Source: an uncultured Bacteroidales bacterium
GTDB taxonomy: Bacteria; Bacteroidota; Bacteroidia; Bacteroidales; CAIXZF01
DNA: 64,000 nt
Direction: 5' to 3'
Assembly (NCBI GenBank): GCA_903923925.1
Contig: CAIXZF010000035.1
Coordinates: 496,001-560,000 of the forward strand
Shown: positions 25,407-40,456 of the stretch, one piece after another
Layout: every line of letters starts with the position of its first letter
How positions within the stretch are numbered: position 1 is the stretch's first letter
Notes under the pieces: generated by a model
The model's database searches: none
What the model was told of the DNA's origin: nothing
Seen by the model: the letters and a program-made list of their open reading frames with translations, nothing else
Translations under genes and position numbers: made by a program

Positions 25407-28400
25407 CTATTGCAATACAATTTTTGTACTTCTGAACCCTAAATTAGTATTAACTTTCAGATAATAAACTCCTGATGGCTGCCTTGAGATATCAATGATT
25501 TGAGAAGAACTCCCGTTGTGTTTGCTGTTGACCTTTTCGAAAACGAGCTGTCCCTGAGGGGAGTAAATGCTGATTGTATTAAAATTGATATTGCCTTCCG
25601 GATTTATTGTAAAAATCCCTTTAGATGGATTTGGAAATAAACTAAATCCAATCCCATTAAACGCAAAAGTATTTATTGAGGAATAATCACTGATAACTAC
25701 ATTATCCAGGTATATATTGTTACTCATATTGCTGTAGGTTTCAAATGCAATTTTTACATTCTTTTTTCCTGCATATTGAGTGATATCAATTGAATAACAA
25801 CTGCTTCCAAAGCTACCACCACACCAGTCATTTTGAATCATTGGTACAAAACTGCTTGTCATAGGAATATGAGTGGAGAATGTACCTGTACCATCATCTC
25901 CTGTTGAAAATATCCTGGACCAACTTTGTGCGCAATCGTCTGAAGCGTAAACAATCAGCGAATCAGAATAATCTGTTTGATATTGCGCATATGCATGCAT
26001 GAAACTAATCGTAGGATTAATAACTCCTGTGAAATCAAATGTCGGGGTAATTAAACGATCGCGTTTACCCATCGAATTTGTGCCATAAATCTGTACTCTG
26101 GCAGATTTATTTCCGGTGCTGTTTCCCCCTGTAGTAACAATTTCCCAGGTTTTATCATAGTTAGGATTCTCTATAGTCCATGATTTGGTATTTAAGTTTC
26201 CACTTTCAAAATCATCTGTAAAGGGTAGGGGAATACCTCCTACTGTAACAAAGGAAGGAAGGGTGAGAAATACTGTACCGTTAACATTGCCAACTGTAAG
26301 ATTAACAGTGTATTGGCCATCTCCATTGAATTGAACAACTGGGTTTTGTGATGTTGCTGTAGTATTGTTCAAAAAAGTTACTGTTGCTGGAGTAAAAGTC
26401 CAAAGCCAGCTTGTAGGACAATACTGGCTTGTGTCGTAGAAATTAACAACTGCATTTCCTGAGCAAAAAATACTGTCGCTTACAATAAAACCAGGTACTG
26501 GAAGGATGGCACTGTTAATATTAATGTATGAAGGCATGATCAGGGTGTCGCTTCCCTGGCTGTTCGAAACAATCAGGGTAACATTGTAAGTGCCAGTATT
26601 AGCATATGTAATGTTCTGAGGGTTCTGTGAGAAAGATGTGGCAGGCATGCCTCCGTCAAAAGTCCATTTCCAGGATGTTGGGAAACCTAAACTTAAATCT
26701 GTAAAATTAATACCACAACCTGCCGGTACACTGTTAAAATTTGCAGTAAAAGCTGCAACAGGCTGATTCTGATATAAACCAGATTCCCACAAACCACGCC
26801 CGTAAGTCGCAGCCCTGATACGGTTATTCTCGGGGTTTACAAGGTCATAATAAATTTCCAGTTCATTGATGTTTCCGGTTAACGGAAGGCCATTGCTGAA
26901 AAATGTCCAGTCGGGCATAGATAAATCCTTAAAAAAAACACCAACGTCTGAACCTACATAAAGTCCTTCCTGACTTCCTTTGCAATAAACAATAGTTGTA
27001 TAAACCACATCAGGTAGTCCGAATGTAATATCTGTCCATGAAGTTCCTTTGTCAACTGACTTAAAAACTTTACTGCCACTCGTCATATAGATAATGCTTG
27101 AAATGTACGGATGACATTCCAGATCAGAAGGTGTTGCTGTTGAAGGAAGATAAGCAGTAAGTTCAGTCCAAATCGGTGATGCTGAATTTGCATTATCTGT
27201 CCTGTACATTCTATGATTCTCTTTAACAACATACAGAATATCAGGGTTGGCAGGCGATTGCTCCAGTACACTACAGTTACTTCCGTTAAACCCACTTATT
27301 TTGGTCCAGGTAACTGCTCCAGTATTTAATGCTTTAATATTAGTGCTTCTCCACACATTTTTATAACCAATAAACATTGAACTCGGGTTATTTTCACCAA
27401 TAATAAATGGTGTTATCCAGGCTCCCTCTTCAGTTATTCCATGAGAACCATTACTTGCAATATTCCCCTGATTATTGAAATTGTAAATTCTGTCGATGCT
27501 CCCGTAATAAACAGTACCATATTTATACAAACTATTCGTTGGGTCAATGGCACATTCCATACCATCTCCACCCATTACGTTTGTCCATCCGGTACTTCTG
27601 TGACAAGATGTTCCGTTATCCTGGTAACCATTCATTACAAGGTCTCTGTCTGTTGTACTCTGGCCAATTTTGTAAACTTGTCCTATTGTAAGTCCCTGAC
27701 TAATCATTGACCAGGTATCGCCTTGATTATTAGTATAATACACTCCTCCGTCATTTCCTGCATATAATTTCCCACTAATAGGAGAGTAGGCTAAAACATG
27801 AAGATCTGCATGTACATTTGCTACCTGGCAATCTCCCCACCAATGTGCAACAATTTCCCAGTTAACACCACCATCAGTTGATCTGAAAATATTAACACCT
27901 CCTGCAAAAATAACATTAGGATTATCTGGATCTACTGCAATTGCCAAATCATACCATGCCTGGCCACCGGTTCCCCCGGTGCAGCCCCAGCTTAGAATAT
28001 TCGGACTGTCTGATTGTAAAGTAAATGTAATACCCTCATCTGTTGAGCGATAAGTAGCTTTGTATGAGTCTGAGTTTCCCAGAAGGAAATAAACTATGTT
28101 GGGATTTGCCCTTGATACTCCGATTACTCCCCGGTTACCTCCAGGTAAGCCTGTGCTGGTTGATGACCAATTATCGCCACCATTTGTCGATTTATATAAG
28201 GTGCCACCGGAGGCAGCATAAACGACATCCGGGCTTCCGGGTTTAAAAACAATGTCTTTGTAATTTCCGGAATTGGATGACACCAATACCCAATTTAAAC
28301 CAGAATCTGTTGATTTGTAAATACCCCCACTTGTTGCTGCTAGCAGAACATGGGAATCATCCGGATTAATAAGCATCTTCCCAACAGTCACATTTCCCAT

Positions 28401-29093
28401 TCCCGAATTTGATTGATTCCAGGTATTCCCTCCATCAATACTCTTCATTACTCCTAAGCCCGGAGCATCTCCTGCATCACGGTCGCCAGTTCCAATATAA
28501 ATTATATTAGGATCAATTTGGCTGATCACTACCGAAGAAACACCGAGTGTCGGGAGATTATCTGTATTGCTCGTCCAGCTTAATCCTCCATCGGTAGTTT
28601 TCCATAGTCCCCCTGCCGGTGCACCTATATAAATAATCTGGGGATTTGTGGGATGAAAACCAATTGCATTCACACGTCCCAAGCCATTTGAACCAGTTGG
28701 AAGATTTGCAGGCCCCATTTCTATCCAGTTACCATGAACCTCTTTGCCAATTAAATGCTTGGTTTTGTACTCGTTATATGCTTTTAAATTCCGGTCTGCT
28801 GCTTCTCTTTCTCCATTGGATTTCATTCGTCTAACTGCATTATACTCCCATCTTTTGAATGGTTTCCAACCACAACTTTTGGTAATTGGCCGGTCCTTCC
28901 AATAAATCTCAAAAGCCCGCTGGACAGCAGGAATACTGATCGATTGATCCTGCATCATGTCAATCCAGTATGGAGTTGTGGCTGTATCTCCTGAATTCAC
29001 TTGCGTAAGACTTTGTGAATTACAGGTAAATGATATAGTAAGCATCGTAAAAACTAAACCAGAGAGAAGCAAAGTTCTGTGAGTGTGGATCAT
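25407..29093 (-). CDS. T9SS type A secreted beta-propeller (sortilin/BNR-like) protein with PKD domains
   Basis: The protein has 1228 residues. A signal peptide ends near CNSQ (about residue 27). Residues ~120-770 hold many Asp-box strands (TTDGGLSW, SIDGGNTW, STDSGLNW, STNGGDNW), which form a multi-bladed propeller like sortilin or sialidase folds. I see no sialidase arginine triad, so catalysis is not claimed. Two PKD domains follow (VAAFTANFNS and VPGFIVSDSI), then a choice-of-anchor J beta-sandwich (TDDFESGNLNTKSW...IYLDNVVISD) and a type A tail (FSLFPNPSKGIFTI). It is exported by T9SS and probably binds or degrades extracellular polymers; the target is unknown. A clear -7 element lies upstream. 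Confidence 0.85.
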   Translation of the reverse strand: MIHTHRTLLLSGLVFTMLTISFTCNSQSLTQVNSGDTATTPYWIDMMQDQSISIPAVQRAFEIYWKDRPITKSCGWKPFKRWEYNAVRRMKSNGEREAADRNLKAYNEYKTKHLIGKEVHGNWIEMGPANLPTGSNGLGRVNAIGFHPTNPQIIYIGAPAGGLWKTTDGGLSWTSNTDNLPTLGVSSVVISQIDPNIIYIGTGDRDAGDAPGLGVMKSIDGGNTWNQSNSGMGNVTVGKMLINPDDSHVLLAATSGGIYKSTDSGLNWVLVSSNSGNYKDIVFKPGSPDVVYAASGGTLYKSTNGGDNWSSTSTGLPGGNRGVIGVSRANPNIVYFLLGNSDSYKATYRSTDEGITFTLQSDSPNILSWGCTGGTGGQAWYDLAIAVDPDNPNVIFAGGVNIFRSTDGGVNWEIVAHWWGDCQVANVHADLHVLAYSPISGKLYAGNDGGVYYTNNQGDTWSMISQGLTIGQVYKIGQSTTDRDLVMNGYQDNGTSCHRSTGWTNVMGGDGMECAIDPTNSLYKYGTVYYGSIDRIYNFNNQGNIASNGSHGITEEGAWITPFIIGENNPSSMFIGYKNVWRSTNIKALNTGAVTWTKISGFNGSNCSVLEQSPANPDILYVVKENHRMYRTDNANSASPIWTELTAYLPSTATPSDLECHPYISSIIYMTSGSKVFKSVDKGTSWTDITFGLPDVVYTTIVYCKGSQEGLYVGSDVGVFFKDLSMPDWTFFSNGLPLTGNINELEIYYDLVNPENNRIRAATYGRGLWESGLYQNQPVAAFTANFNSVPAGCGINFTDLSLGFPTSWKWTFDGGMPATSFSQNPQNITYANTGTYNVTLIVSNSQGSDTLIMPSYININSAILPVPGFIVSDSIFCSGNAVVNFYDTSQYCPTSWLWTFTPATVTFLNNTTATSQNPVVQFNGDGQYTVNLTVGNVNGTVFLTLPSFVTVGGIPLPFTDDFESGNLNTKSWTIENPNYDKTWEIVTTGGNSTGNKSARVQIYGTNSMGKRDRLITPTFDFTGVINPTISFMHAYAQYQTDYSDSLIVYASDDCAQSWSRIFSTGDDGTGTFSTHIPMTSSFVPMIQNDWCGGSFGSSCYSIDITQYAGKKNVKIAFETYSNMSNNIYLDNVVISDYSSINTFAFNGIGFSLFPNPSKGIFTINPEGNINFNTISIYSPQGQLVFEKVNSKHNGSSSQIIDISRQPSGVYYLKVNTNLGFRSTKIVLQ

Positions 29094-29164: not shown

Positions 29165-32014
29165 TTAACTCACGTTTCTGTTACATACCGGAGCATAAGC
29201 ACATTGGGAACAAATTACCAGATCACTACATTGTGAGAATGGAATAGTTGAGTCGAAGACTTCATCCAGTATATCATTGAGTATTTGCTTAAAATTATCA
29301 GAAATTTGTGAGTTAAAGACATTCCCCTGAGGTGTATTTACAAATTTCGGACCACCCGACAACTGCCTGAATGAGATGATAGCCGACTTTATACCTGACT
29401 CTAACCCATTTTGTCTGGCGTAAACGAAACTATAGAACAAAAGCTGGAAACACTTGTCAAGTTTGCTTTCTGAAATAAGATTGTCCCAGTCTTTAAAACT
29501 TAAATCACTATCCTTTACATATCCCGTTTTGTAATCAATTAGCAGATACTCATTGTTTATCTTATCAATCCTGTCAATCTGACCAATTAAATTTACAGTA
29601 TGCCCATTTGTTAACAAAAGTTCTGTTTTAATATTCTGTTCTGTTCCGATTGGCATAATTACCTGATTGGAGGAGGCTGATTCTCTGAGTCTTTCAAGTT
29701 CCTGCAGCAGAAACCTTTCCATTAAACGCTTACTTACTTCAACCAGGAGGTGACTTTTCCCAATATTTAATTCTCCCTGTGGAAAATGCTTTAGGAATGA
29801 ATCAAGAATCAGATTAGGAACCTCGGTTCTCATTCTGTTTATCTTTTCTTCGGATAATTGACCGTCTTGACATATGGGAGCGTATAAATTTTCCAGAACT
29901 TCGTGCAATGCTGTTCCAAGTGTTTGGGCATCAATTGTTTCTGATATCTCTTCTAATTCTTTGATTCCGGCAATATCACTAAAATAGAACTGTAAACTAC
30001 AGCGCCGGTATTTATTAATAGATGTGGGGCTAAATCCTCTTTCTGCTTTATTCTCAAGGGCTTTAAGAATATTTTCACGCTTCTGAATTAGTATAGGTTC
30101 ATCTTTTTCCTGCTCATAACCAGGAGCCGACAACAAGCTTTCTTCAATTTCAATTTCAGGATTATATTTTCTAAGTTCATTAAGAATCTGAAGAATGAAC
30201 CTGCTTTTATCTCCACCATTTAATTTACCTGCTTCAGTATTATATATTAGAAAAATACACTTTGGCCTTTGCAGCAATCTATAAAAGTGATACGCCGTAA
30301 CAGCCTGTTTTTCTCTGAATGTTGGCAAACCGAACTCATTTCGGATTTCGTACGGGATAAACCCCTGAAGACCACTTCCTGAAGGCAGAATACCCTCGTT
30401 TACATTCATAACTATCACATTGTCAAAATCAAGTGTCCTGGTTTCCAGCATACCCATTATCTGAAGTCCTTTCAGCGGTTCGCCATAAAATGGAATTTTT
30501 ACTCTTTGAACTGCCTGCCTGTATAATTTCTGAAGACTCCTTAAATCCATTTTAACAGGATAATTTTCAAGAAAATCTTTCATCGTGGCAAACAAACCGG
30601 AAAAATGAAAAAGAAACTCTCTGGTCAATAACTCTGGGGTCAAACCTGTATCCTTTGTTTTCTCAAATGATAAATCAGTATTTTCCTTAAAAAGTAATAT
30701 CAGATGCTGGCAACTTGAAATGAATTTTTCAGGATCTTCGGCTTTATCAAAAATAAAACTAAGTGAATTGAAAGTTTCTTCCGAATTATTGAAAATAATT
30801 TGATGAATTTCTTCTTTTGTAAAATAGATTTTATTTGAATTAAGTATCTGTTCCGAAGTTGTACTATCTTGATTCAGTGAGACTTCTAATGCAGAACGCA
30901 CATAGGGGTGTTGAAAGAATAAAAGAAGATTCCGGAAATAAAATCGGTTTGATGATTTTACAGCGTGGATATGCAGTTCAAAAAAAGATTCAAATAACTG
31001 ATGAAGTGAAACACCTGACATGGGTAAGCCCATTGTAATATTCATTCCCCCAATCCCTTCAGGCAATGAATTGAGCATTGGCATCAGCATATCCTCTTTA
31101 CCCAGGACGAGTGCAGTTGTTGAGAGGTCATCCCCGGAATTATTTATGTCCTTAATTATCTGACCAACTGCTTTGGCCTGTCCAATATTTTTTGCAACAC
31201 CAAGTAAAGCAATCTTTTTAGGGCCTGTTCTGAATTCGTCAGTTATCCATTTAATCTCCTTCAGGTTTTTATTTAGAAAACTTTTCCGAAGAAAGGTCCC
31301 GGCTTCCTGTATTTCATTATCAAGGTAATAATGATCAGCATCCCAGAGAATATCTGCTTTACCCGAGGAAACAAGACAGTTGATAATCTTTTCCTCAGAT
31401 TTGGTCATTGCATTAAACCCCGCAAAAATGATCTTTTCCCATGGGATATTTAGTTCACTGCTATCAATCTTTTCAGCAAGCTCCCTGTATGCCATTCCCT
31501 GAGTGGCTTTTCCCTTTTCATTTAAACTTCTTTTAAGACCATTATAATAGTCTATTAATGATCTGAAAAATTCCAGATATCGCTGTTCAAAGTCGGTGAG
31601 TTCATTTTTATCCGGACTCCATAACGAAATAGCTTTACTGTCAGTAAGATAGGTGAATATCGATCTTGCATCAGCCAGATAATGATCTATTTCCTCAAAA
31701 TCCTCAAGCGCGGTTGGCGCCCAATCAATAAAATCATCGAAAGATTGAGTTGTATTCCCAATCTGTTGATGAACATGAAACATTTCAAACAAAAGTTCCT
31801 CATTTTGCACCGGAGTTTTCTCTGTCAGATGGAAAATAAAATCTTCAATTGAATAGCAGTTTGGAAACCATACAGGTTTATCAATCAGATCCGCTAAATG
31901 TTTTCTCAGGAAAACAGAAGCCCTGCGGTTAGGAAAAACAAGTGCAAGCTTTTGAAAATTACCTGAATAATTATCGTTTATATGTTTTGCGACTTTTAAT
32001 AAAAAACCTTCCAT
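29165..32014 (-). CDS. AddB-like PD-(D/E)XK nuclease
   Basis: The protein has 949 residues. The N-terminus (LALVFPNRRASVFLRKHL) matches the AddB/RexB-type opening in which a helicase-like core is degenerate. The C-terminal nuclease shows GQIDRID and LLIDYKTG (about residues 805-830), the PD-(D/E)XK catalytic core. A cysteine near residue 671 (YRRCSLQFYF) plus Cys 935, 938 and 944 form the C...CxxCx5C set that binds a [4Fe-4S] cluster in AddB nucleases. Family knowledge puts it in double-strand-break end processing together with an AddA helicase, but no addA lies in this window. Its ATG follows the stop of the MurU-like gene by two bases, so it is translated in the same operon. Confidence 0.82.
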   Translation of the reverse strand: MEGFLLKVAKHINDNYSGNFQKLALVFPNRRASVFLRKHLADLIDKPVWFPNCYSIEDFIFHLTEKTPVQNEELLFEMFHVHQQIGNTTQSFDDFIDWAPTALEDFEEIDHYLADARSIFTYLTDSKAISLWSPDKNELTDFEQRYLEFFRSLIDYYNGLKRSLNEKGKATQGMAYRELAEKIDSSELNIPWEKIIFAGFNAMTKSEEKIINCLVSSGKADILWDADHYYLDNEIQEAGTFLRKSFLNKNLKEIKWITDEFRTGPKKIALLGVAKNIGQAKAVGQIIKDINNSGDDLSTTALVLGKEDMLMPMLNSLPEGIGGMNITMGLPMSGVSLHQLFESFFELHIHAVKSSNRFYFRNLLLFFQHPYVRSALEVSLNQDSTTSEQILNSNKIYFTKEEIHQIIFNNSEETFNSLSFIFDKAEDPEKFISSCQHLILLFKENTDLSFEKTKDTGLTPELLTREFLFHFSGLFATMKDFLENYPVKMDLRSLQKLYRQAVQRVKIPFYGEPLKGLQIMGMLETRTLDFDNVIVMNVNEGILPSGSGLQGFIPYEIRNEFGLPTFREKQAVTAYHFYRLLQRPKCIFLIYNTEAGKLNGGDKSRFILQILNELRKYNPEIEIEESLLSAPGYEQEKDEPILIQKRENILKALENKAERGFSPTSINKYRRCSLQFYFSDIAGIKELEEISETIDAQTLGTALHEVLENLYAPICQDGQLSEEKINRMRTEVPNLILDSFLKHFPQGELNIGKSHLLVEVSKRLMERFLLQELERLRESASSNQVIMPIGTEQNIKTELLLTNGHTVNLIGQIDRIDKINNEYLLIDYKTGYVKDSDLSFKDWDNLISESKLDKCFQLLFYSFVYARQNGLESGIKSAIISFRQLSGGPKFVNTPQGNVFNSQISDNFKQILNDILDEVFDSTIPFSQCSDLVICSQCAYAPVCNRNVS

Positions 32015-32016
32015 TT

Positions 32017-32739
32017 TTAATCTTTGAATAATTTTGAGGCTGCTCTCAGGCTCTCAGATTTACCTACATCAATCCACTTATCACTATCATGCGCATAGGC
32101 AATAATCTTCTCATTTTCAGATAATTGTAAATAGGCTTCAATAATTGAGAATTTGCCTTTAAGGGTCAGCTTATCAAAGAATTGGGTGCTAATAATCTGA
32201 ATCCCACTGAAAGCTAGCTTGTTAAGATTCAATTCGTTATACCCATTATTAATTTTAATCTGATTATTATTTTCGTTTTTCCACCCTCGCAAACAATTAG
32301 TATTATCAAAAAGCAAATATCTGCTGGTACTCCTCTTTCTTACTGCTAAGGTTGCCAGAGCTTCATTCTCCATATGCCAGCTGAACATTGTATTAATGTC
32401 TATAGAACTCAGTATATCAACATTATAGACAAGAAAGCTTTCATTGCCCAGAAATTGGCGCGCTTTCTGAATTCCTCCTCCTGAATCGAGCAATTGATCG
32501 CTTTCGTCAGAAATCACAATAGTTACTCCAAAATTATTTTTGGAATTTAAATATTCTTTAAGCATTCCTGCAAAGTGATGAGTATTTACAACAATCTCCT
32601 CAATTCCTGAAGCAATAAGTTTGTTAATACAGATCTCAAGTAAAGTCTGGCCATTTATCTCAATTAATGCCTTGGGCTTGCTAATAGTTAATGGAAGCAG
32701 CCTTGTCCCCAACCCGGCTGCAAGTATCATGGCTTTCAT
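32017..32739 (-). CDS. murU: MurU-like sugar-1-phosphate nucleotidyltransferase
   Basis: The protein has 240 residues from the ATG at 32739; the longer frame to 32805 overlaps the upstream gene and is rejected. The N-terminus MKAMILAAGLGTRLLPLT, followed by KPKALIEING, is the nucleotide-binding signature of NTP transferases (GxGTRLxPxT...PK). YNVDI near residue 105 supplies the metal-binding Asp. The gene starts one base after the stop of the AmgK-like kinase. Kinase and nucleotidyltransferase in that order form the AmgK-MurU route, in which MurNAc is phosphorylated at C1 and converted to UDP-MurNAc, bypassing de novo synthesis. Specificity is inferred from context; a related sugar nucleotide (for example GDP-mannose) is the alternative. 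Confidence 0.78.
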   Translation of the reverse strand: MKAMILAAGLGTRLLPLTISKPKALIEINGQTLLEICINKLIASGIEEIVVNTHHFAGMLKEYLNSKNNFGVTIVISDESDQLLDSGGGIQKARQFLGNESFLVYNVDILSSIDINTMFSWHMENEALATLAVRKRSTSRYLLFDNTNCLRGWKNENNNQIKINNGYNELNLNKLAFSGIQIISTQFFDKLTLKGKFSIIEAYLQLSENEKIIAYAHDSDKWIDVGKSESLRAASKLFKD

Positions 32740-32740
32740 T

Positions 32741-34177
32741 CTATTGGTTTGCTGTTTTTGGAAAGGATTGTTCCTTGTGATTAAGTTCCAGAGTAAGATT
32801 ATCATACTTCTTCAGATAATTCGCTAGCATTTCTGCCAAGTAAACAGACCGATGCTGCCCGCCGGTGCATCCAAAGCTAATCATCAAATTTGTGAATCCT
32901 CTCGATTGATATGTTTTTACACTCTGATCAACCAAGGCAAGAACATGCGTGGAAAATTCGTTTACTTCTTTAAAACTGTTCAGATAATCAGCAACTTCTT
33001 TATCTTTTCCGGTTTTACCTTCATATCCTTGCAAACGACCAGGGTTTGGCAGAGCTCTGCAATCGAAAACAAAACCGCCACCATTACCGCTTAAATCGGT
33101 GGGAATCCCTTTTTTATATGAAAAACTATTAATATTTACTGTTAATTTTAATTGAGCAATTGTCCTTAATACAGGTGAATTAATAATTTGATTGAGGACC
33201 TTTGTCAGTACGGGTAGTTTTATTGGAATCGGATGGTTTTCAAGTAAGTACTCAAGATTTTTCAATGCATAAGGAATGCTGAGCAGAAAATGCAGTTTTT
33301 TTTCATAGAATCCACGGAATCCATATGCTCCCATTGCCTGCATTATTCTTATATAAACAAAGGCGTAATAATAATTCAGAAAACTGGATTTTTCTATTGG
33401 AACGAATTCAGATAATTTGTCCAGGTAATAGTCTATTAATTCTTTTCTGAGATATTCAGGTAAATCTGCTTTTGCATCGTAAAGTAAAGAAGCAATATCA
33501 TAGTGCAGTGCTCCTTTTCTACCGCCCTGATAATCAATAAAATAAATCTCATTGTCTTTAATCATGATATTTCTTGACTGAAAATCACGGTAAAGGAAGT
33601 AAGTGCTGTCAGGCTTAAGAAGGAAGTTGCATAATGTTTCAAAATCTTCTTCCAGAGCTTGTTCATCAAAATTTATATGGGATAGTTTCAGAAAATAATA
33701 CTTAAAATAATTAAGGTCCCACATTATAGATTGTTTATCAAATGCAGGCCTGGGATAGCAATTCCTGAAGTCGATTAGCTTTGCACCCTTTACTTGGAAT
33801 TTTGGCAGCCAGTTTATGGCTTTTTTGTAAAGTGCAATTGCATCCTCTGGAAATTCAAGCCCGTTTTGGAGTCCTGTTAGTGTTGAAAACAAAGTATGAT
33901 CACCCAAATCTTCCTGAAGGTAAACACTTGAATCATCTTTCCAGCCATAGATTTCAGGAACTGGAAGCCCTTGGTTTTTGAAGTGATTACTAAGATATAT
34001 AAAAGCGGCATTTTCTTTCAGGTCGTCATTAACAGCACCTATCATACTTCTTTCACCTGAGATTATTCTGAAATAGATTCTGTTGGATCCTGACCCGGGT
34101 AGCATGGTGATACTTTCTGGCAGTTTACCGGTAGTTTTTAGATAGAGTTCCTGAAGGAGTTGGATGTCTTTTTTCAC
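32741..34177 (-). CDS. amgK: AmgK-like aminosugar kinase fused to a RapZ C-terminal domain
   Basis: The protein has 478 residues from a GTG at 34177, my preferred start; a TTG at 34222 adds 15 poorly convincing residues. Residues ~1-320 are an aminoglycoside-phosphotransferase-type kinase with the catalytic loop YRDFQSRN (Asp 198) and the metal-binding FIDYQGG (Asp 215), as in AmgK, which phosphorylates MurNAc and GlcNAc at C1. Residues ~345-465 match the RapZ C-terminal half: SFSYKKGIP, FDCRALPNPG, TGKD and SFGCTGGQHRSVY. In E. coli that domain binds GlcN6P and the GlmZ RNA; the RapZ N-terminal ATPase is absent here. The fusion suggests that recycled aminosugar levels tune the kinase, which is inference. 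MurU follows one base downstream. Confidence 0.8.
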   Translation of the reverse strand: MKKDIQLLQELYLKTTGKLPESITMLPGSGSNRIYFRIISGERSMIGAVNDDLKENAAFIYLSNHFKNQGLPVPEIYGWKDDSSVYLQEDLGDHTLFSTLTGLQNGLEFPEDAIALYKKAINWLPKFQVKGAKLIDFRNCYPRPAFDKQSIMWDLNYFKYYFLKLSHINFDEQALEEDFETLCNFLLKPDSTYFLYRDFQSRNIMIKDNEIYFIDYQGGRKGALHYDIASLLYDAKADLPEYLRKELIDYYLDKLSEFVPIEKSSFLNYYYAFVYIRIMQAMGAYGFRGFYEKKLHFLLSIPYALKNLEYLLENHPIPIKLPVLTKVLNQIINSPVLRTIAQLKLTVNINSFSYKKGIPTDLSGNGGGFVFDCRALPNPGRLQGYEGKTGKDKEVADYLNSFKEVNEFSTHVLALVDQSVKTYQSRGFTNLMISFGCTGGQHRSVYLAEMLANYLKKYDNLTLELNHKEQSFPKTANQ

Positions 34178-34244
34178 GTTTCTGCTAATATTTTGATGTA
34201 CTACAAAATAAAAGAAAATCAACGAAAAAAAGCCTGAAAATCCC

Positions 34245-34290: not shown

Positions 34291-34797
34291 ATGGAAACAA
34301 AAACTGCTACCGACATCCTGAAAATGGCTATACTAATGGAAAAACGCGGTAAAGCTTTCTATGCTCAAGTTGCACAGCAAACGCAAGACGAAGAAGCTCG
34401 TTCGATTTTCCAATTCATGGCTGATGAAGAACAAATGCATGTTGAATTTCTGGCAAAGCAATATTTATATTATGAGAAAAACCAAAAATTTGATGTAAAT
34501 GCTCCAATAGCCAGTGGCGCCGACGAGGGAGTAGTACTTTCAATTTTGAATGAAGGAATGAAATCTCAGATTACTGCTGCAAGCTACGAAGCTGCAGCTA
34601 TTTCAGCTGCCATAGATTTTGAAACAAAAGCAATTGAGTATTATTCAAAAATGGCTGAGCAGGCGACTGATGAAAATGAAAAACAGATGTATACCTGGCT
34701 TGCAGAATGGGAAGGTGGGCACCACAAAGTGCTTTTTCAGATGAACCAGGAGTTAATGGAAAAAGTTTGGAACGATAATCAGTTCTGGCCTTTTTAG
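34291..34797 (+). CDS. Ferritin-like diiron protein (rubrerythrin type without rubredoxin domain)
   Basis: The protein has 168 residues and is a four-helix bundle with two ExxH-type half-sites. Ligand candidates are Glu 17, Glu 47 and His 50 (EEQMH) in the first half and Glu 111, Glu 141 and His 144 (EGGHH) in the second. No CxxC rubredoxin motif is present. Rubrerythrin-like proteins reduce peroxide or store iron in anaerobes; which of these applies is not decided by sequence. The last four bases overlap the stop of the convergent Nramp gene. A second, shorter ferritin-like gene at 37741 flanks gdhA. Confidence 0.82.
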   Translation: METKTATDILKMAILMEKRGKAFYAQVAQQTQDEEARSIFQFMADEEQMHVEFLAKQYLYYEKNQKFDVNAPIASGADEGVVLSILNEGMKSQITAASYEAAAISAAIDFETKAIEYYSKMAEQATDENEKQMYTWLAEWEGGHHKVLFQMNQELMEKVWNDNQFWPF

Positions 34798-36062
34798 TTT
34801 AGGAAACTTAAAAATAACCTGATATTTAGGTATGCTACAATCGCGGCAATGACAAGGATCAATGCCGTGGTTCTTTTTTTGTTCACATATTTCCCCATTA
34901 CCTTTTTTGAAGATGTAAGGTAGATTTGAGATAAAATCGTGAATGGTAGTTGAATACTTAATATCATTTGAGAATAAACAAGCCCGAGAAAAGGATTCCC
35001 AACGAAAAAGATAACAAAAAGAGCTCCGAAAAGGGAGATTCCGACTCCTAATTTGGAATGGCTATCTTTTATGTCGTAAGGTTCATTGAACATTCCGGAA
35101 AAAATACTGCCTCCAGCCATACCTGAAGTAACAGTGGAGGCAATCCCGGCAAATAATAAGGAAAGTGCAAAAATAACCGACGCATAATTCCCCAATAAAG
35201 GTTTTAATAAATTTTGTGCCTGCTGTAATTCACCTACCTGAACATGCTGGCTAAAAAACGCAGTAGCTGCAAGTAAAATCATTGCACTGTTAATTGCCCA
35301 GCCAATCACCATTGATAATAGTGTGTCGGTAAATTCAAACTTTAGTTGCCTGCTTATAATTGCATCATCTTCCAGGTTCCATTGGCGGCTTTGAATTATT
35401 TCTGAATGAAGGAAAATATTGTGAGGCATAACAACTGCCCCCAGAACGCTCATTATCACTAATATAGATCCTTCAGGAATGCTTGGTGTAACCCAACCTT
35501 CTGCGGCAGCTCCCCAATCAATATGAACCAGAGTTAGCTCATAAATAAAGGAAAGTCCAATAATGCTAACAAACCCGATTATCCATTTTTCCAAACGTTG
35601 GTAAGTATTAAAAAACAATAAAAATCCTACAACAATTGTAACCATAGCAGCTGCAATTTTTATTGGGATGCCTAATAGCATATTCAATGCTATTCCACCT
35701 CCGAGAATTTCAGCCATAGATGTTGACACCGAGGCCACCATTGCTGTACTAAGTACCCCTTTCGAGATCCATTTTGGCAGATAAATTGTAGCAGCTTCTG
35801 ATAAACAAAGCCCGGTTGCAATTCCAAGATGTGCAATATTGTGTTGCAAAACAATTAGCATAATTGTCGACAATGTCACCATCCATAGAAGTACATAGCC
35901 ATATGATGAACCGGCGGCCAGATTTGATGCCCAATTACCGGGATCAATAAACCCAACGGTAACAAGCAAGCCCGGACCAATATATTTTATTATATCCAGG
36001 CCGGAATAGCCTGGCTTATGATCTTTCCTTTTTAAATCCTTTAAAAAATTAAAAAACTTCAT
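34794..36062 (-). CDS. mntH: Nramp-family divalent metal transporter (MntH-like)
   Basis: The protein has 422 residues and about 11 hydrophobic segments. Metal-site motifs of the family are present: DPGN at residues 40-43 in helix 1 and VVMPHN at 210-215 in helix 6, with Met 212 as the soft-metal ligand typical of Mn/Fe-selective Nramps. It imports Mn2+ or Fe2+ with protons across the inner membrane. The gene converges on the ferritin-like gene with overlapping stop codons, and diverges from gdhA. Substrate preference between manganese and iron cannot be read from this alone. Confidence 0.9.
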   Translation of the reverse strand: MKFFNFLKDLKRKDHKPGYSGLDIIKYIGPGLLVTVGFIDPGNWASNLAAGSSYGYVLLWMVTLSTIMLIVLQHNIAHLGIATGLCLSEAATIYLPKWISKGVLSTAMVASVSTSMAEILGGGIALNMLLGIPIKIAAAMVTIVVGFLLFFNTYQRLEKWIIGFVSIIGLSFIYELTLVHIDWGAAAEGWVTPSIPEGSILVIMSVLGAVVMPHNIFLHSEIIQSRQWNLEDDAIISRQLKFEFTDTLLSMVIGWAINSAMILLAATAFFSQHVQVGELQQAQNLLKPLLGNYASVIFALSLLFAGIASTVTSGMAGGSIFSGMFNEPYDIKDSHSKLGVGISLFGALFVIFFVGNPFLGLVYSQMILSIQLPFTILSQIYLTSSKKVMGKYVNKKRTTALILVIAAIVAYLNIRLFLSFLN

Positions 36063-36201
36063 ACCTTTAGAACAGAAATAGAAATAAATAGTTCAATTAT
36101 ATATCCCGTAAAATCTACTGGTTATCATATTTATAAAGATTACAATAAGATTTGATTGATTTATTTTTTTTGTTTCCTTAAAATTAATTAATTTTGTCTT
36201 G

Positions 36202-36232
36202 TTAAATAATTAACAGTGTTATTTAATTAACA
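36202..36232 (+). promoter_or_regulatory. Candidate operator upstream of gdhA
   Basis: An inverted repeat (TTAAATAA at 36202-36209 and TTATTTAA at 36219-36226) overlaps a direct repeat (TAATTAACA at 36207-36215 and 36224-36232, 17 bp apart). It lies about 30-60 bases before the gdhA ATG and could be a regulator site. AT-rich sequence produces such patterns by chance, so confidence is low. Confidence 0.3.
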
Positions 36233-36262
36233 TTACTACAAAAATCAAATTTACACAACATC

Positions 36263-37600
36263 ATGGACGTAGAAAAATTTATGCTCGAACTTGAGCGGAA
36301 ACACCCGGGGGAAATGGAGTATCTTCAGGCAGTAAGGGAAGTCCTTGAATCTATCGAGGAAATTTATAACGAAAATCCGCAGTTCGATTCTGCAAAGATT
36401 ATTGAACGTTTGGTTGAGCCTGACAGGATTCTCATGTTTAAAGTGCCATGGGTAGATGACAATGGCCAGGTGCATGTTAACCTGGGCTACAGAGTTCAGT
36501 TTAATAACGTTATCGGACCTTACAAAGGTGGCTTACGTTTCCACCCGAGCGTTAATCTCAGTATCCTGAAATTCCTTGGATTCGAACAAATCTTTAAAAA
36601 CAGCTTGACTACATTACCTATGGGTGGTGCAAAAGGTGGTTCAGATTTTGATCCAAAGGGTAAATCAAATGCAGAAATTATGCGTTTCTGTCAGGCTTTT
36701 ATGCTTGAATTATGGAAAATTATTGGACCTGAAACTGATGTTCCTGCTGGTGATATTGGTGTTGGAGGAAGAGAAATCGGTTTCATGTATGGTATGTATA
36801 AAAAACTTGCCAGCGAAAATACAGGTGTATTAACTGGAAAAGGTCTGAATTGGGGTGGTAGTTTAATTCGCCCTGAGGCTACAGGGTTTGGCGCAGTTTA
36901 TTTTGCTGAGGAGATGCTTAAAACCAGGAATACTTCTTTCCAGGGAAAAACTGTTGCAATCAGCGGTTTTGGAAATGTTGCCTGGGGAGCTGCCACTAAG
37001 GCTAACGAATTAGGTGCAAAGGTTGTAACAATTTCAGGCCCTGATGGTTATATTTATGATCCAGATGGAATATCAGGAGAAAAGATTAACTACCTCCTCG
37101 AACTAAGAGCTTCAAATCAAGACATAGTTAAACCGTATTCATATGAATTTCCAAGTGCTCAGTTTGTGCAGGGAAAACGTCCATGGGAAGTTAAATGTGA
37201 TATTGCGTTGCCCTGTGCTACTCAGAATGAACTTGATAAGGACGACGCATTAAATCTTGTTAAAAACGGTTGTTTCTGTGTTGCCGAAGGTGCAAACATG
37301 CCTAGCACTCCAGGCGCAATTGAAGTTTTCCTTGAATCAAAAACTCTTTTTGCCCCAGGCAAAGCTGTTAATGCCGGAGGAGTAGCTACTTCTGGTTTGG
37401 AGATGGCGCAAAATGCTATGAAAATGAACTGGCCAATGGAAGAGGTCGACCAACGTTTACACCAGATCATGAAAAGTATCCATGGCTCTTGTGCAAAATA
37501 TGGTACTGATTCTGAAGGTTATATAAATTACGTTAAAGGTGCAAACATTGCAGGTTTCCTTAAAGTTGCCAATGCAATGCTTGATCAGGGCGTGATTTAA
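36263..37600 (+). CDS. gdhA: NADP-type glutamate dehydrogenase
   Basis: The protein has 445 residues, the normal size for the hexameric class I enzyme. It catalyses reductive amination of 2-oxoglutarate to glutamate. The substrate-binding segment PYKGGLRF (Lys 88), the catalytic PMGGAKGGSDFDPKGKS (Lys 124) and PAGDIGVGGREIG (Asp 164) are complete. The Rossmann motif GFGNVA is at 235-240; the acidic residue favouring NAD is not evident after the second strand (TISGPDG), which fits NADP use. A strong hairpin follows the stop. In this neighbourhood it is the main ammonia-assimilation gene; it diverges from the Nramp gene. Confidence 0.95.
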   Translation: MDVEKFMLELERKHPGEMEYLQAVREVLESIEEIYNENPQFDSAKIIERLVEPDRILMFKVPWVDDNGQVHVNLGYRVQFNNVIGPYKGGLRFHPSVNLSILKFLGFEQIFKNSLTTLPMGGAKGGSDFDPKGKSNAEIMRFCQAFMLELWKIIGPETDVPAGDIGVGGREIGFMYGMYKKLASENTGVLTGKGLNWGGSLIRPEATGFGAVYFAEEMLKTRNTSFQGKTVAISGFGNVAWGAATKANELGAKVVTISGPDGYIYDPDGISGEKINYLLELRASNQDIVKPYSYEFPSAQFVQGKRPWEVKCDIALPCATQNELDKDDALNLVKNGCFCVAEGANMPSTPGAIEVFLESKTLFAPGKAVNAGGVATSGLEMAQNAMKMNWPMEEVDQRLHQIMKSIHGSCAKYGTDSEGYINYVKGANIAGFLKVANAMLDQGVI

Positions 37601-37614
37601 TCCGACAATTTATT

Positions 37615-37678
37615 AAAAAACGCGCATGGGTTTGTTTTGAGGGTTATGCCCTCAAAATACTGCTCATCCGCGTTTTTT
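37615..37678 (+). terminator. Compound hairpin terminator after gdhA
   Basis: The inner hairpin is TTTTGAGGG (37635-37643), loop TTATG, CCCTCAAAA (37649-37657). It sits inside an outer stem of AAAAAACGCG (37615-37624) with CGCGTTTTTT (37669-37678), so the T-run closes it. The base-paired A and T tracts would let it act on both strands. Confidence 0.8.
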
Positions 37679-37683
37679 TAATG

Positions 37684-37714
37684 TTTGAAAAATACCAAAA
37701 ATCAACTATGTTTG
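37684..37714 (+). promoter_or_regulatory. Promoter of ferritin-like gene 2
   Basis: TTTG (37684-37687) and TATGTTTG (37707-37714) are separated by 19 bases, a full Bacteroidetes promoter. It starts just after the gdhA terminator and lies 26 bases before the ATG at 37741, so it fixes that start and rules out the in-frame ATG at 37681. Confidence 0.75.
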
Positions 37715-37740
37715 TGAGCCTAAATGAAACAAGAATTTAT

Positions 37741-38196
37741 ATGGAAGAGTTTAAAAATATTAATGATGTATTGGACTTTGCAATACAGAGTGAACAGGAT
37801 GCTGTTGATTTCTACACAACCCTAAGTAACTCATCTACAAATACTGAAATGGCTGACATCTTCCGCCAATTTGCCAAAGAAGAAATGGGACACAAAGCCA
37901 GGTTAACCAGAATTAAAGAGCAGGGAATTTTCAATATCCAAATTGAAAATGTTCCTAATTTAAAAATTGCTGAATTTCTGGTTGAATTAAAAGCTACTCC
38001 CGGAATGAGCTACCAGGATGCCCTGATACTTGCCATGCATAGGGAAAAGGCTGCTTTTAAGTTGTATTTGAAACTGGCCGACAATGCTCCTGATCCTAAT
38101 TTAAGAGAAGTTTTCTATGGTCTTGCCCTTGAAGAATCAAAACATAAACTTCGATTCGAACTTGAATACGACGAATTTATTCTCAAGGAGAATTAG
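37741..38196 (+). CDS. Ferritin-like diiron protein 2
   Basis: The protein has 151 residues from the ATG at 37741. It shows the same two half-sites as ferritin-like protein 1: Glu 18, Glu 48 and His 51 (KEEMGH), then Glu 102, Glu 132 and His 135 (EESKH). It lacks a rubredoxin domain. The two proteins are related but clearly diverged, so this is an old duplication or a separate acquisition. The role is probably peroxide detoxification or iron handling. It has its own promoter after the gdhA terminator and is therefore not co-transcribed with gdhA by default. Confidence 0.8.
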   Translation: MEEFKNINDVLDFAIQSEQDAVDFYTTLSNSSTNTEMADIFRQFAKEEMGHKARLTRIKEQGIFNIQIENVPNLKIAEFLVELKATPGMSYQDALILAMHREKAAFKLYLKLADNAPDPNLREVFYGLALEESKHKLRFELEYDEFILKEN

Positions 38197-38253: not shown

Positions 38254-40407
38254 TTACCTCAAAATTGTAAGAGTTCCGTCATATTTATACTCGCCACTAC
38301 GCTTACCTGTTCTCAGTAAGTAATAATATGTCCCATTCGGAAAATCCTTTCCATTCCAGTCGTTCAGGTATGGTGATGCCTCGTAGACTTTCTTTCCCCA
38401 ACGATTGTAAACGATCAAACTATTTTTAGGAAGATATTGAAGATTTGTTATAACGAAATTATCATTTTTTCCATCCCCGTTCGGTGTAATAATATTTGGA
38501 ATAGTTAATTGTTCCATTGGTGTTATAGTAACAGGTTTTGAGATAGAATCTTTACATCCTTTATCCGACATAACCCACAGCCAGACATTAAATGTTCCGG
38601 TTTCTGTAAAAGTATAGGAAGGACTTGGTTCATTCGAATTTCCTTCGATTGAATCGCTGAAACTCCAGAGGAAATTTGTACAATTTGCTGAACTTAGATT
38701 TGTAAAAGTAATCAGTGACTCGTCGATTGAAACACTATCAGGTGTCGCGGTAAAATCCGCCGTTGGCAATGGAAATACTTTGATAAGGTTATCCACTGTA
38801 TAATTCTTTGAACAGCCTTCTGGCGTAGTTGCCGCAATATATACTGTATAAGCTGGAATATTCGGATCGTAATGAAAAGTATGCAGAGGATTTTTTGCGG
38901 TATCAGATGTACCATCACCAAATGTCCAGTACCAGTTGCTGATAGTATTCGGAGTAGTAATGTTTGTAAATTGCACCACCAACGAATCACAGCCCTCATA
39001 AATCTCTGGTTTAAAACTGATCATTGGATTTAAATTATAAGTAACATGCACGGAATCTGTAGCAACAGAGCAACGTGTACTATCTTTAACCACTACCGTA
39101 TAAACCGTATTTTGATTCATAGTAGCTAATGGATTAACAGAGTGAGGATTACTCAGTGTTTGTATAGGTGACCATTGTATCCCATAAGGAGGTGCACCTC
39201 CGGTTGGATTAATGTTCAGTTGCACTGCAGACTCACAAACAGCAGTATCATTGCTTGCCGTCATTGTAATATTTACGTAGTCGTAAATAGGAATTATTAT
39301 TGTTGTGTCTGTTAGCGTACAAATTGATGTTCGTATTTTAACTTCAACTGTTTCAACTCCTTCCGGAATTCCATCGTATGCTGGTACTATTGATAAATTT
39401 CCTGCAACATGAAATGGAAGTATCATAACAGTACTGTCAATCGGATTATAATTACCAAGAGTAAAGTCTGTATTCCAAATAGCAGTACCTGTCATTATGT
39501 TATGAATTTTAACATACTGAGTATCAGCTTTAGCAAAAGGCAAGGTAAATTTAACTGCTGCATTACGACATCCTTCAATTGCTATAGGAGCTGTCATAAA
39601 TGGATTTCCAGGGCTGCTGTAAACAGTATTAACATTTAATGAAGTACTCGTAAAACTGTTTTCTTCAAGGAATACACCAGAATCATAAGCCTGGTCACTT
39701 ACATCAGCAATTGCAAGTTTAATATGATAGGTTTGGCATGGAATTACTGCGTGCCAGGCAGTTAAAACTGTTGTAAATCCATCATACTGCACTGTAAGTC
39801 CACCTGTGTTTGAAATATAATACTGTGTATTGATATTCTGGTTTACATTGTTAATAGCTACTGCGGTAGATGTATTTGGAATAAGAGCAATATTTACTGC
39901 ATTATTCGTAAAAGGTCCAGTAATCCCGGGACCGCTCACAAAAAATCCGAAAACATCATTAAAACTCGTCCCGACAAATTCAGGATATTCTTCAGAGGCA
40001 AAAACATACCTGAATCTTATAGTATCGGACTGTGGAATAAAATCAAATGCAAGTACACAGCAATTTTGTACAGTACCTGTTGCAATTGCCTGCAAATCTG
40101 GATCTATATTAGGCCAGTTATTTGATGCCGTAGCAGATGTGGAATTATTTGGACCCGGAGCAATATTTATATCCCCTGAAGTCAACAATACACCACTGTT
40201 AAGTCCTATATTTGAGTTACTTACGAATGTTCCAGCAGCAAGCGGAGCACCATTATAGGTTATGTTGCTGGTAGTAACTCCTTGTCCAACCAAAACATCC
40301 TGAACCCACTGGGTTGGTGTTAAAGAACTACTTACAAGCAACTGTGCCTGGCAATAACCTGAAACAATTAGCAGTAAGATGATTGCTGAAAATCGTAAAT
40401 TCTTCAT
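38254..40407 (-). CDS. T9SS type B secreted protein with choice-of-anchor L domain and PKD domain
   Basis: The protein has 717 residues. I chose the ATG at 40407 because the signal peptide (MKNLRFSAIILLLIVSGYCQAQ) begins there; 15 extra upstream residues are hydrophilic. The choice-of-anchor L domain follows, with VGQGVTTSNITYNG near residue 38 and FASEEYPEFVG near 135. After it come two beta-sandwich segments, PKD-like domains (FGDGTSDTAKNPLHTF around residue 530) and a complete type B sorting domain (IPNIITPNGDGKNDNF, DRWG-like YNRWGKKVYE, NDWNGKDFPNGTYYYLL). Such proteins are exported by T9SS and tethered or released. The choice-of-anchor L domain has no assigned ligand. Confidence 0.88.
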   Translation of the reverse strand: MKNLRFSAIILLLIVSGYCQAQLLVSSSLTPTQWVQDVLVGQGVTTSNITYNGAPLAAGTFVSNSNIGLNSGVLLTSGDINIAPGPNNSTSATASNNWPNIDPDLQAIATGTVQNCCVLAFDFIPQSDTIRFRYVFASEEYPEFVGTSFNDVFGFFVSGPGITGPFTNNAVNIALIPNTSTAVAINNVNQNINTQYYISNTGGLTVQYDGFTTVLTAWHAVIPCQTYHIKLAIADVSDQAYDSGVFLEENSFTSTSLNVNTVYSSPGNPFMTAPIAIEGCRNAAVKFTLPFAKADTQYVKIHNIMTGTAIWNTDFTLGNYNPIDSTVMILPFHVAGNLSIVPAYDGIPEGVETVEVKIRTSICTLTDTTIIIPIYDYVNITMTASNDTAVCESAVQLNINPTGGAPPYGIQWSPIQTLSNPHSVNPLATMNQNTVYTVVVKDSTRCSVATDSVHVTYNLNPMISFKPEIYEGCDSLVVQFTNITTPNTISNWYWTFGDGTSDTAKNPLHTFHYDPNIPAYTVYIAATTPEGCSKNYTVDNLIKVFPLPTADFTATPDSVSIDESLITFTNLSSANCTNFLWSFSDSIEGNSNEPSPSYTFTETGTFNVWLWVMSDKGCKDSISKPVTITPMEQLTIPNIITPNGDGKNDNFVITNLQYLPKNSLIVYNRWGKKVYEASPYLNDWNGKDFPNGTYYYLLRTGKRSGEYKYDGTLTILR

Positions 40408-40456
40408 AATTAATAGGATGTGGTGTAAATGGTAAATTCGTATTGTAAACAAACGC

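Follow-up and report, generated by a model that had tools for sequence, protein, structure and literature searches.

Which role does the C-terminal domain of RapZ assume when it is attached to a sugar kinase? The question is raised by a gene on the minus strand of the window, the stretch of 64,000 nucleotides from an uncultured Bacteroidales bacterium analysed in this study, whose product combines an AmgK-like sugar kinase with a RapZ C-terminal domain (RapZ-C; 32741..34177, as defined by its open reading frame and Pfam matches). RapZ is known as an RNA adaptor and as a sensor of GlcN6P, and the fusion attaches its pocket to a salvage enzyme while lacking most of the features that mediate RNA binding. 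A first-pass annotation had proposed that an amino sugar phosphate or an RNA would exert direct feedback on cell wall recycling through this domain.

Architecture of the fusion protein

The open reading frame, whose strand the first-pass annotation had left unstated, starts with a GTG codon at 34177 and its TAG stop ends at 32741, thus encoding a protein of 478 residues, with an in-frame TTG at 34222 as a possible alternative start. This single frame contains both domains that the first-pass annotation had described, a kinase (APH) domain at residues 26-252 (33422..34102, minus strand; PF01636, E 1e-10) and RapZ-C at residues 345-470 (32768..33145, minus strand; PF22740, E 2.3e-34), the latter scoring 118.6 bits at a cut-off of 27, and the RapZ landmarks SFSYKKGIP, FDCR, TGKD and GCTGGQHRSVY are all present in its translation. 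In a predicted model of the full-length protein (mean pLDDT 92.7), the kinase fold extends beyond the bounds of the Pfam domain to about residue 340, and its range 2-342 matches 3csv with a Z-score of 29.1 and a deviation of 2.8 Å over 310 residues. Residues 344-472 of the same model match the C-terminal domain of E. coli RapZ (5o5s; Z 20.0, 1.5 Å, 122 residues), as does RapZ-C when folded alone (Z 19.5, 1.5 Å, 122 residues, 36% identity), which provides the structural match by which the assignment was to be judged. The N-terminal P-loop kinase-like domain of RapZ is missing, the N-terminus of the fusion being formed by the APH domain, and the RapZ equivalog model covers only residues 328-469 (110.8 bits at a cut-off of 244).

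Two residues of the kinase, Asp198 in the loop YRDFQSRN (33584..33586, minus strand) and Asp215 (33533..33535, minus strand), are invariant in 58 aligned sequences including the window. By analogy to the APH family we take the former to be the catalytic base and the latter to be the metal-binding aspartate, as assigned before. Together with the APH fold and the adjoining MurU, their conservation bears out the description of the protein as an AmgK-like kinase. The adjoining gene encodes a MurU-like nucleotidyltransferase (32017..32739, minus strand; NTP_transferase, E 7e-25) and starts at 32739, leaving a single base between it and the fusion, as noted earlier. Its best NCBIfam model is MurU (NF045761), at 140.8 bits and thus under the cut-off of 250.

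Distribution and inheritance of the kinase and RapZ-C

Of 395 Bacteroidota genomes surveyed, 49 contain a RapZ-C match, which resides in a frame of 476-524 residues in 37 cases and in one of 134-169 residues in 12. All of the 37 long frames also contain a match to the kinase in a profile search, and none of the 49 RapZ-C frames in these genomes has the length of a classical RapZ. Since 37 of 49 RapZ-C genes are fused, chance and an accident of assembly can both be ruled out as origin of the protein. Beyond this survey, which had been called for in the annotation, a profile scan yielded at least 591 relatives in named genomes, the best 80 of which include members of Bacteroidota, Acidobacteria, Elusimicrobia, Calditrichia, Ignavibacteria, Neomarinimicrobiota and Gemmatimonadota. 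As the 80 named loci were picked via the patterns [FY]GCTGGQH or [YF]RDF[QN][SA]RN[IV], which biases their counts of Cys and Gln, residue counts refer to 41 profile-found copies, namely those fetched out of the 49 survey matches. Of the alignments used, A1 comprises 24 of 30 survey loci with the window counted, A3 57 loci and the window from 76 usable references, and A4 55 loci and the window from 75.

Of 29 fused survey loci, 26 have MurU on the same strand directly after the fusion, with no MurU found within the short flank covered in the remaining three. Among 76 fused named loci, MurU is directly downstream in 45 (one ending at a contig edge). The next largest neighbouring family recurs in just six named loci. 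Six fusion genomes were checked for a classical full-length RapZ, and two of them, from an acidobacterium and an elusimicrobium, contain one, so that the fusion represents a separate line rather than a mere replacement of RapZ. We conclude that the AmgK/MurU salvage system, which is of a known kind, has a genuine and widespread variant with RapZ-C as partner. In the open-access literature searched, no paper was found that names RapZ together with AmgK.

The kinase is present in all 49 genomes with RapZ-C, at 268.7-509.2 bits in a profile search of the 395 genomes. Since the underlying profile (A2) was built from 18 kinases that all originate from RapZ-C genomes, it favours the kinases of such genomes, and although 31 of the 49 are independent of it, the statement that a strong kinase comes with RapZ-C leans on the choice of profile sequences. 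Kinases were counted up to an E-value of 1e-30. An equally strong kinase is encoded in only one other genome (G009, 370.7 bits), which has no RapZ-C. A distant kinase (108-155 bits) in the absence of RapZ-C is found in 76 genomes of a single family, which judging by gene content is presumably Chlorobi-like. In all tests of co-occurrence, related genomes are counted as independent. In G009 (L123:5090-6801), the kinase lies beside MurU, and AnmK, MurQ and NamZ were likewise not found.

Among the 12 separate RapZ-C copies, seven show the order kinase-RapZC-MurU, one kinase-RapZC and one RapZC-MurU, and three are linked to neither, the kinase being located elsewhere in the genome in four cases (the RapZC-MurU pair and the three unlinked copies). 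The gene finder reported no RapZ-C frame in L045, L104 and L118 and a lone RapZ-C in L066. A quick tree of the kinase, in which 25 of 56 inner branches are weakly supported, places split forms beside fused ones on two occasions, on branches with SH-aLRT values of 98 and 99. These forms are most simply accounted for by two fissions after which both halves were retained, a direction that we infer from the tree. Such retention would suit successive enzymes, and the existence of split and unlinked pairs illustrates that the covalent link is dispensable, whereas the pair generally is not.

Cell wall sugar salvage and a missing step

A role of the gene family in peptidoglycan salvage is well supported, and the substrate of the kinase is probably an amino sugar of the MurNAc/GlcNAc type. 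As in the AmgK/MurU/MupP system of Pseudomonas, an anomeric amino sugar kinase is encoded together with a MurNAc-1P uridylyltransferase, in a genome where AnmK is present and MurQ was not found. The system described here differs by the distant relationship of its kinase and MurU, both under the NCBI equivalog cut-offs (for AmgK models 51.3 bits compared to 500 and 46.1 compared to 550), by the RapZ-C domain of its kinase, and by the fact that the source genome yielded no Gph/MupP-like HAD protein at 1e-8. A system for MurNAc salvage in the same phylum is the AmgK/MurU pair of Tannerella forsythia, whose expression in E. coli is described to allow labelling with MurNAc probes (PMC13041923).

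The low equivalog scores of the kinase and of MurU weigh against the assignment to this route, and they would also be compatible with a kinase that uses another sugar in an operon that supplies capsule or glycan synthesis with a different UDP- or NDP-sugar, in which case the link to the cell wall would be wrong, irrespective of the function assigned to RapZ-C. The structural matches of the kinase also leave room for this, as they comprise many APH-type kinases, with N-acetylhexosamine 1-kinase and glucosamine kinase in lower rows at Z-scores of about 19. We consider such a different substrate unlikely in light of the MurU model at the top of all NCBIfam models for the partner gene, the lack of any neighbouring family besides MurU in more than six named loci, the strong link to the absence of MurQ among AnmK-positive genomes detailed below, and the position of NamZ, a MurNAc-releasing enzyme, relative to the distant homologues. 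NamZ is encoded on the strand of the distant kinase, at a distance of about 1.1 kb, in eight of nine Chlorobi-like genomes examined by coordinates. In three loci read, this kinase and a longer nucleotidyltransferase stand in a row and NamZ comes after them. Pfam confirms NamZ in one distant-kinase locus, and in a second one it confirms a sodium symporter. The mere presence of NamZ is uninformative, since it was found in 76 of 80 genomes. The clusters L128-L130 from this group, which contain the kinase, the longer nucleotidyltransferase and NamZ, with a symporter-like gene in two of them, likely serve MurNAc uptake and salvage without RapZ-C.

The source genome contains AnmK and the AmgK/MurU-like pair, whereas no MurQ was detected at 1e-50 and, as mentioned, no Gph/MupP-like HAD protein at 1e-8, so that a phosphatase for MurNAc-6P seems to be missing. 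In Pseudomonas, MupP is reported to dephosphorylate MurNAc-6P before the step catalysed by AmgK (PMC5371407). The search for its counterpart relied on the Gph-type model TIGR01449 as a proxy for MupP, which is coarse. The source genome has six HAD_2 matches. Of three such proteins scanned, one is clearly above the cut-off for the beta-phosphoglucomutase family and two are nearest to models of glucose-1-phosphatase and TIGR02253 with scores under both cut-offs, and a MupP-specific model does not appear by name in the 25 best models for each of the three.

The combination of AnmK and an AmgK/MurU-like pair without MurQ is seen in 15 further genomes with RapZ-C in the survey, but it is not general. 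Of the 49 with RapZ-C, 16 contain both AnmK and MurQ, 16, including the source genome, AnmK alone, four MurQ alone and 13 neither of them, compared to 238, 2, 19 and 10, respectively, among genomes without the kinase. In the distant-kinase family neither enzyme was found in any of the 76 genomes, and the same holds for G009. When restricted to AnmK-positive genomes, kinase and RapZ-C are found together in 16 of 18 without MurQ compared to 16 of 254 with MurQ. In cells of the former type, the MurNAc-6P formed by AnmK would have to be dephosphorylated before it could serve AmgK. AnmK is absent in all 77 genomes with a kinase (at E up to 1e-30) and no RapZ-C, a contrast that rests on one family of 76 and one further genome. 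The presence of AnmK by itself was rejected as tracker of RapZ-C, as it is found in 32 of 49 genomes with and in 240 of 346 without the domain. Of 32 further fusion genomes, 25 contain AnmK and MurQ, two AnmK alone, one MurQ alone and four neither. This set, made up solely of fusion-bearing genomes, was chosen by hand among the named loci; it includes 25 genomes from other phyla and many metagenome bins whose completeness is uncertain.

Conservation of the RapZ-C pocket

The fusion shares with RapZ of E. coli and YvcJ of B. subtilis the C-terminal fold and the pocket loop C-T-G-G-x-H-R-S. It differs from both by the lack of the N-terminal P-loop domain and the basic tail, by substitutions in the pocket and by an additional glycine-rich stretch (SGNGGG). 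The loop encompasses Cys437-Thr-Gly-Gly-Gln-His-Arg443 followed by Ser444 (32849..32869, minus strand) and corresponds to the region C247-R253 of E. coli RapZ, which forms part of its malonate/sulphate pocket. In E. coli numbering, Cys247, Thr248, Gly249, Gly250, His252, Arg253 and Ser254 are retained in 41 of 41 profile-found copies, whereas Lys251 is replaced by Gln in 40. With the named loci added, the cysteine is found in 118 of 118 sequences and Arg253 in 117, as is each of Phe181 and Asp182, which are required for dimerization of the C-terminal domain. Outside the loop, His190, which is essential in E. coli RapZ, is substituted by Gly in all 41 copies and Trp191 by either Arg or Lys in 40, and the ligand has thus probably changed. 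In two full-length RapZ relatives compared, position 190 is occupied by a His in one and a Phe in the other. Given the retained anion pocket, an amino sugar phosphate would be a reasonable ligand, and it is a matter of speculation that the Arg or Lys gained at position 191 might meet the lactyl carboxylate of MurNAc.

A Cys separated by five residues from an Arg and a Ser is the signature of cysteine phosphatases, where a strand precedes the cysteine and a helix starts from the arginine around an anion, an arrangement shared by PTP, low-molecular-weight PTP and ArsC-like enzymes. The same succession is observed in RapZ-C, where in both models the cysteine ends a strand and the arginine starts a helix, although the overall fold of the domain differs from these enzymes as far as tested and no general acid was identified. 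Searches of Pfam and of PDB sequences revealed no sequence-profile kinship of RapZ-C with phosphatase families. Its structural matches are RapZ proteins, and the lone phosphatase, Ci-VSP (3v0i, Z 5.1), stands among background rows, although the absence of other phosphatase families from this list does not exclude such likeness.

Function of the RapZ-C domain

The features of this pocket suggest a role for RapZ-C that we narrowly prefer over its function as a sensor, namely that of the MurNAc-6P phosphatase of the salvage route, an assignment to which we attribute somewhat less than an even chance. The protein would in this case be a two-domain enzyme in a pathway generating UDP-MurNAc from recovered cell wall sugar. 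AnmK would convert anhydro-MurNAc to MurNAc-6-phosphate, from which RapZ-C would strip the 6-phosphate via Cys437 and the C-x5-R loop, in place of the HAD phosphatase MupP of Pseudomonas, before the AmgK-like domain would phosphorylate MurNAc at C1 and MurU, encoded by the next gene, would add UMP. Such activity is in line with the conservation of the C-x5-R-S loop in all 41 copies, the step that seems to be missing in the source genome, the tolerance towards splitting of the gene and the lack of AnmK in the 77 kinase genomes without RapZ-C, which comprise one family and one genome. It is also in line with the behaviour of E. coli RapZ, where the mutants C247A and C247S are reported to be inactive and a catalytic -SH group was suggested by the authors, and where the density in a crystal of the C-terminal domain with GlcN6P is described as 'likely a chemically transformed product', and with the phosphatase activity cited, besides an NTPase activity, for the RapZ homologue YvcJ (PMC7525490). 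The term 'phosphatase' is absent from the paper describing this pocket, and no paper in the open-access literature searched was found to pair RapZ with protein tyrosine phosphatases.

Several observations argue against this phosphatase role. The 13 of 49 genomes with neither AnmK nor MurQ have no known source of MurNAc-6P, a Gph-like HAD match, which in no case exceeds the model cut-off, is found in 47 of the 49 and could itself be the phosphatase, the six HAD_2 matches remain as candidates in the source genome, and 25 of the 32 further fusion genomes contain both AnmK and MurQ. The lack of a profile link to phosphatases, the match of the fold at background level and the absence of an identified general acid point in the same direction. 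The phosphatase activity of YvcJ may be located in its N-terminal domain.

It is nearly as likely that RapZ-C acts as a sensor that binds an amino sugar phosphate (GlcN6P, MurNAc-6P) or a UDP-sugar in the conserved pocket and switches the kinase on or off within the chain or a complex, such that salvage follows supply, which is the feedback idea without RNA. The isolated C-terminal domain of E. coli RapZ is reported to bind GlcN6P with a KD of 10 nM (PMC7073468), and the fold, six of seven loop residues and the two dimer residues are all retained in the fusion family. The presence of AnmK and MurQ in the 25 further fusion genomes would define a branch point where control pays, and sensing is compatible with the 13 genomes containing neither enzyme. 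However, the replaced residues at positions 190 and 191 suggest a different ligand, the invariant Cys-Arg-Ser loop is not explained by sensing itself, and the splitting and unlinking of genes would be less expected of an intramolecular switch, although a complex could survive it. We thus regard a sensor as a serious contender, albeit also at less than even chance. In contrast, it appears improbable that RapZ-C plays a structural role as dimerizer of the kinase or as dock for MurU with its pocket remaining as a relic. The C-terminal domain of E. coli RapZ forms dimers (PMC5737377), whose critical residues are conserved, and a separate RapZ-C gene beside MurU would fit a docking protein, but a relic would not be expected to retain seven pocket residues in 41 of 41 copies, and unlinked copies exist.

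Highly improbable is a mechanism where RapZ-C would bind a small RNA and thereby tie the activity or expression of the kinase to it. Although RapZ of E. coli is described to bind GlmY and GlmZ through its C-terminal domain, only Enterobacteriaceae are said to possess the tail used for RNA binding (PMC7073468). Seven basic residues line the path of GlmZ in the E. coli protein. Among them, R184 is retained in all 41 profile-found copies and K170 and R196 remain basic in 40 and 36, whereas R238 is aromatic in all 41, K251 is replaced by Gln in 40, R211 is scattered and K194 is mostly lost, and the mean net charge of the last 20 residues is near zero. With four of seven contact residues and the basic tail mostly lost, RNA binding is unlikely and this reading was set aside. 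Of the first-pass annotation, the AmgK-like kinase, the RapZ-C fold and the coupling to MurU are supported by our analysis, as is an amino sugar phosphate as a reasonable ligand in view of the retained anion pocket, whereas the route via RNA is not. Direct feedback may still apply, and a catalytic role of RapZ-C fits about as well.

The preferred phosphatase role might also extend beyond the fusion. In a more doubtful generalization, RapZ-C would be a C-x5-R cysteine phosphatase for amino sugar 6-phosphates, which in the fusion replaces MupP and feeds the AmgK domain of the same chain, while the same chemistry acting on GlcN6P underlies sensing in classical RapZ. If true, this chemistry would explain both the loss of function in C247S and the transformed GlcN6P in the crystal. 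A phosphatase would close a gap in the peptidoglycan recycling of some of these bacteria and could account for the unexplained requirement of E. coli RapZ for Cys247, whereas a sensor would provide direct control of the AmgK/MurU route at the level of the protein. Since RapZ-C is inherited with the salvage kinase in the Bacteroidota examined, the role of its pocket would be accessible to a simple assay.

Other genes at the locus

On the strand of murU and starting two bases behind it, a gene encodes a protein of 949 residues with a C-terminal PD-(D/E)XK nuclease domain (29165-32014), and a gene that appears similar by eye is located downstream in six named loci. On the other side of the fusion, the region 34291-38196 harbours two rubrerythrin/ferritin-like genes, one assigned by Pfam (34291-34797) and the other by eye (37681-38196). 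Between them lie genes for an Nramp metal transporter and for a probable glutamate dehydrogenase, the former of which overlaps the first rubrerythrin/ferritin-like gene tail to tail. In five named loci, a gene resembling rubrerythrin by eye is found upstream of the fusion on the opposite strand. Two large proteins of 1228 and 732 residues (25407-29093 and 38254-40452) are probably secreted and by eye resemble gliding or type IX secreted proteins. Finally, in two genomes where the kinase is encoded elsewhere (L032:4627-5907 and L034:4673-5950), the lone RapZ-C gene has close behind it a transporter gene, which in L032 belongs to the MFS according to Pfam and in L034 is assigned by likeness.
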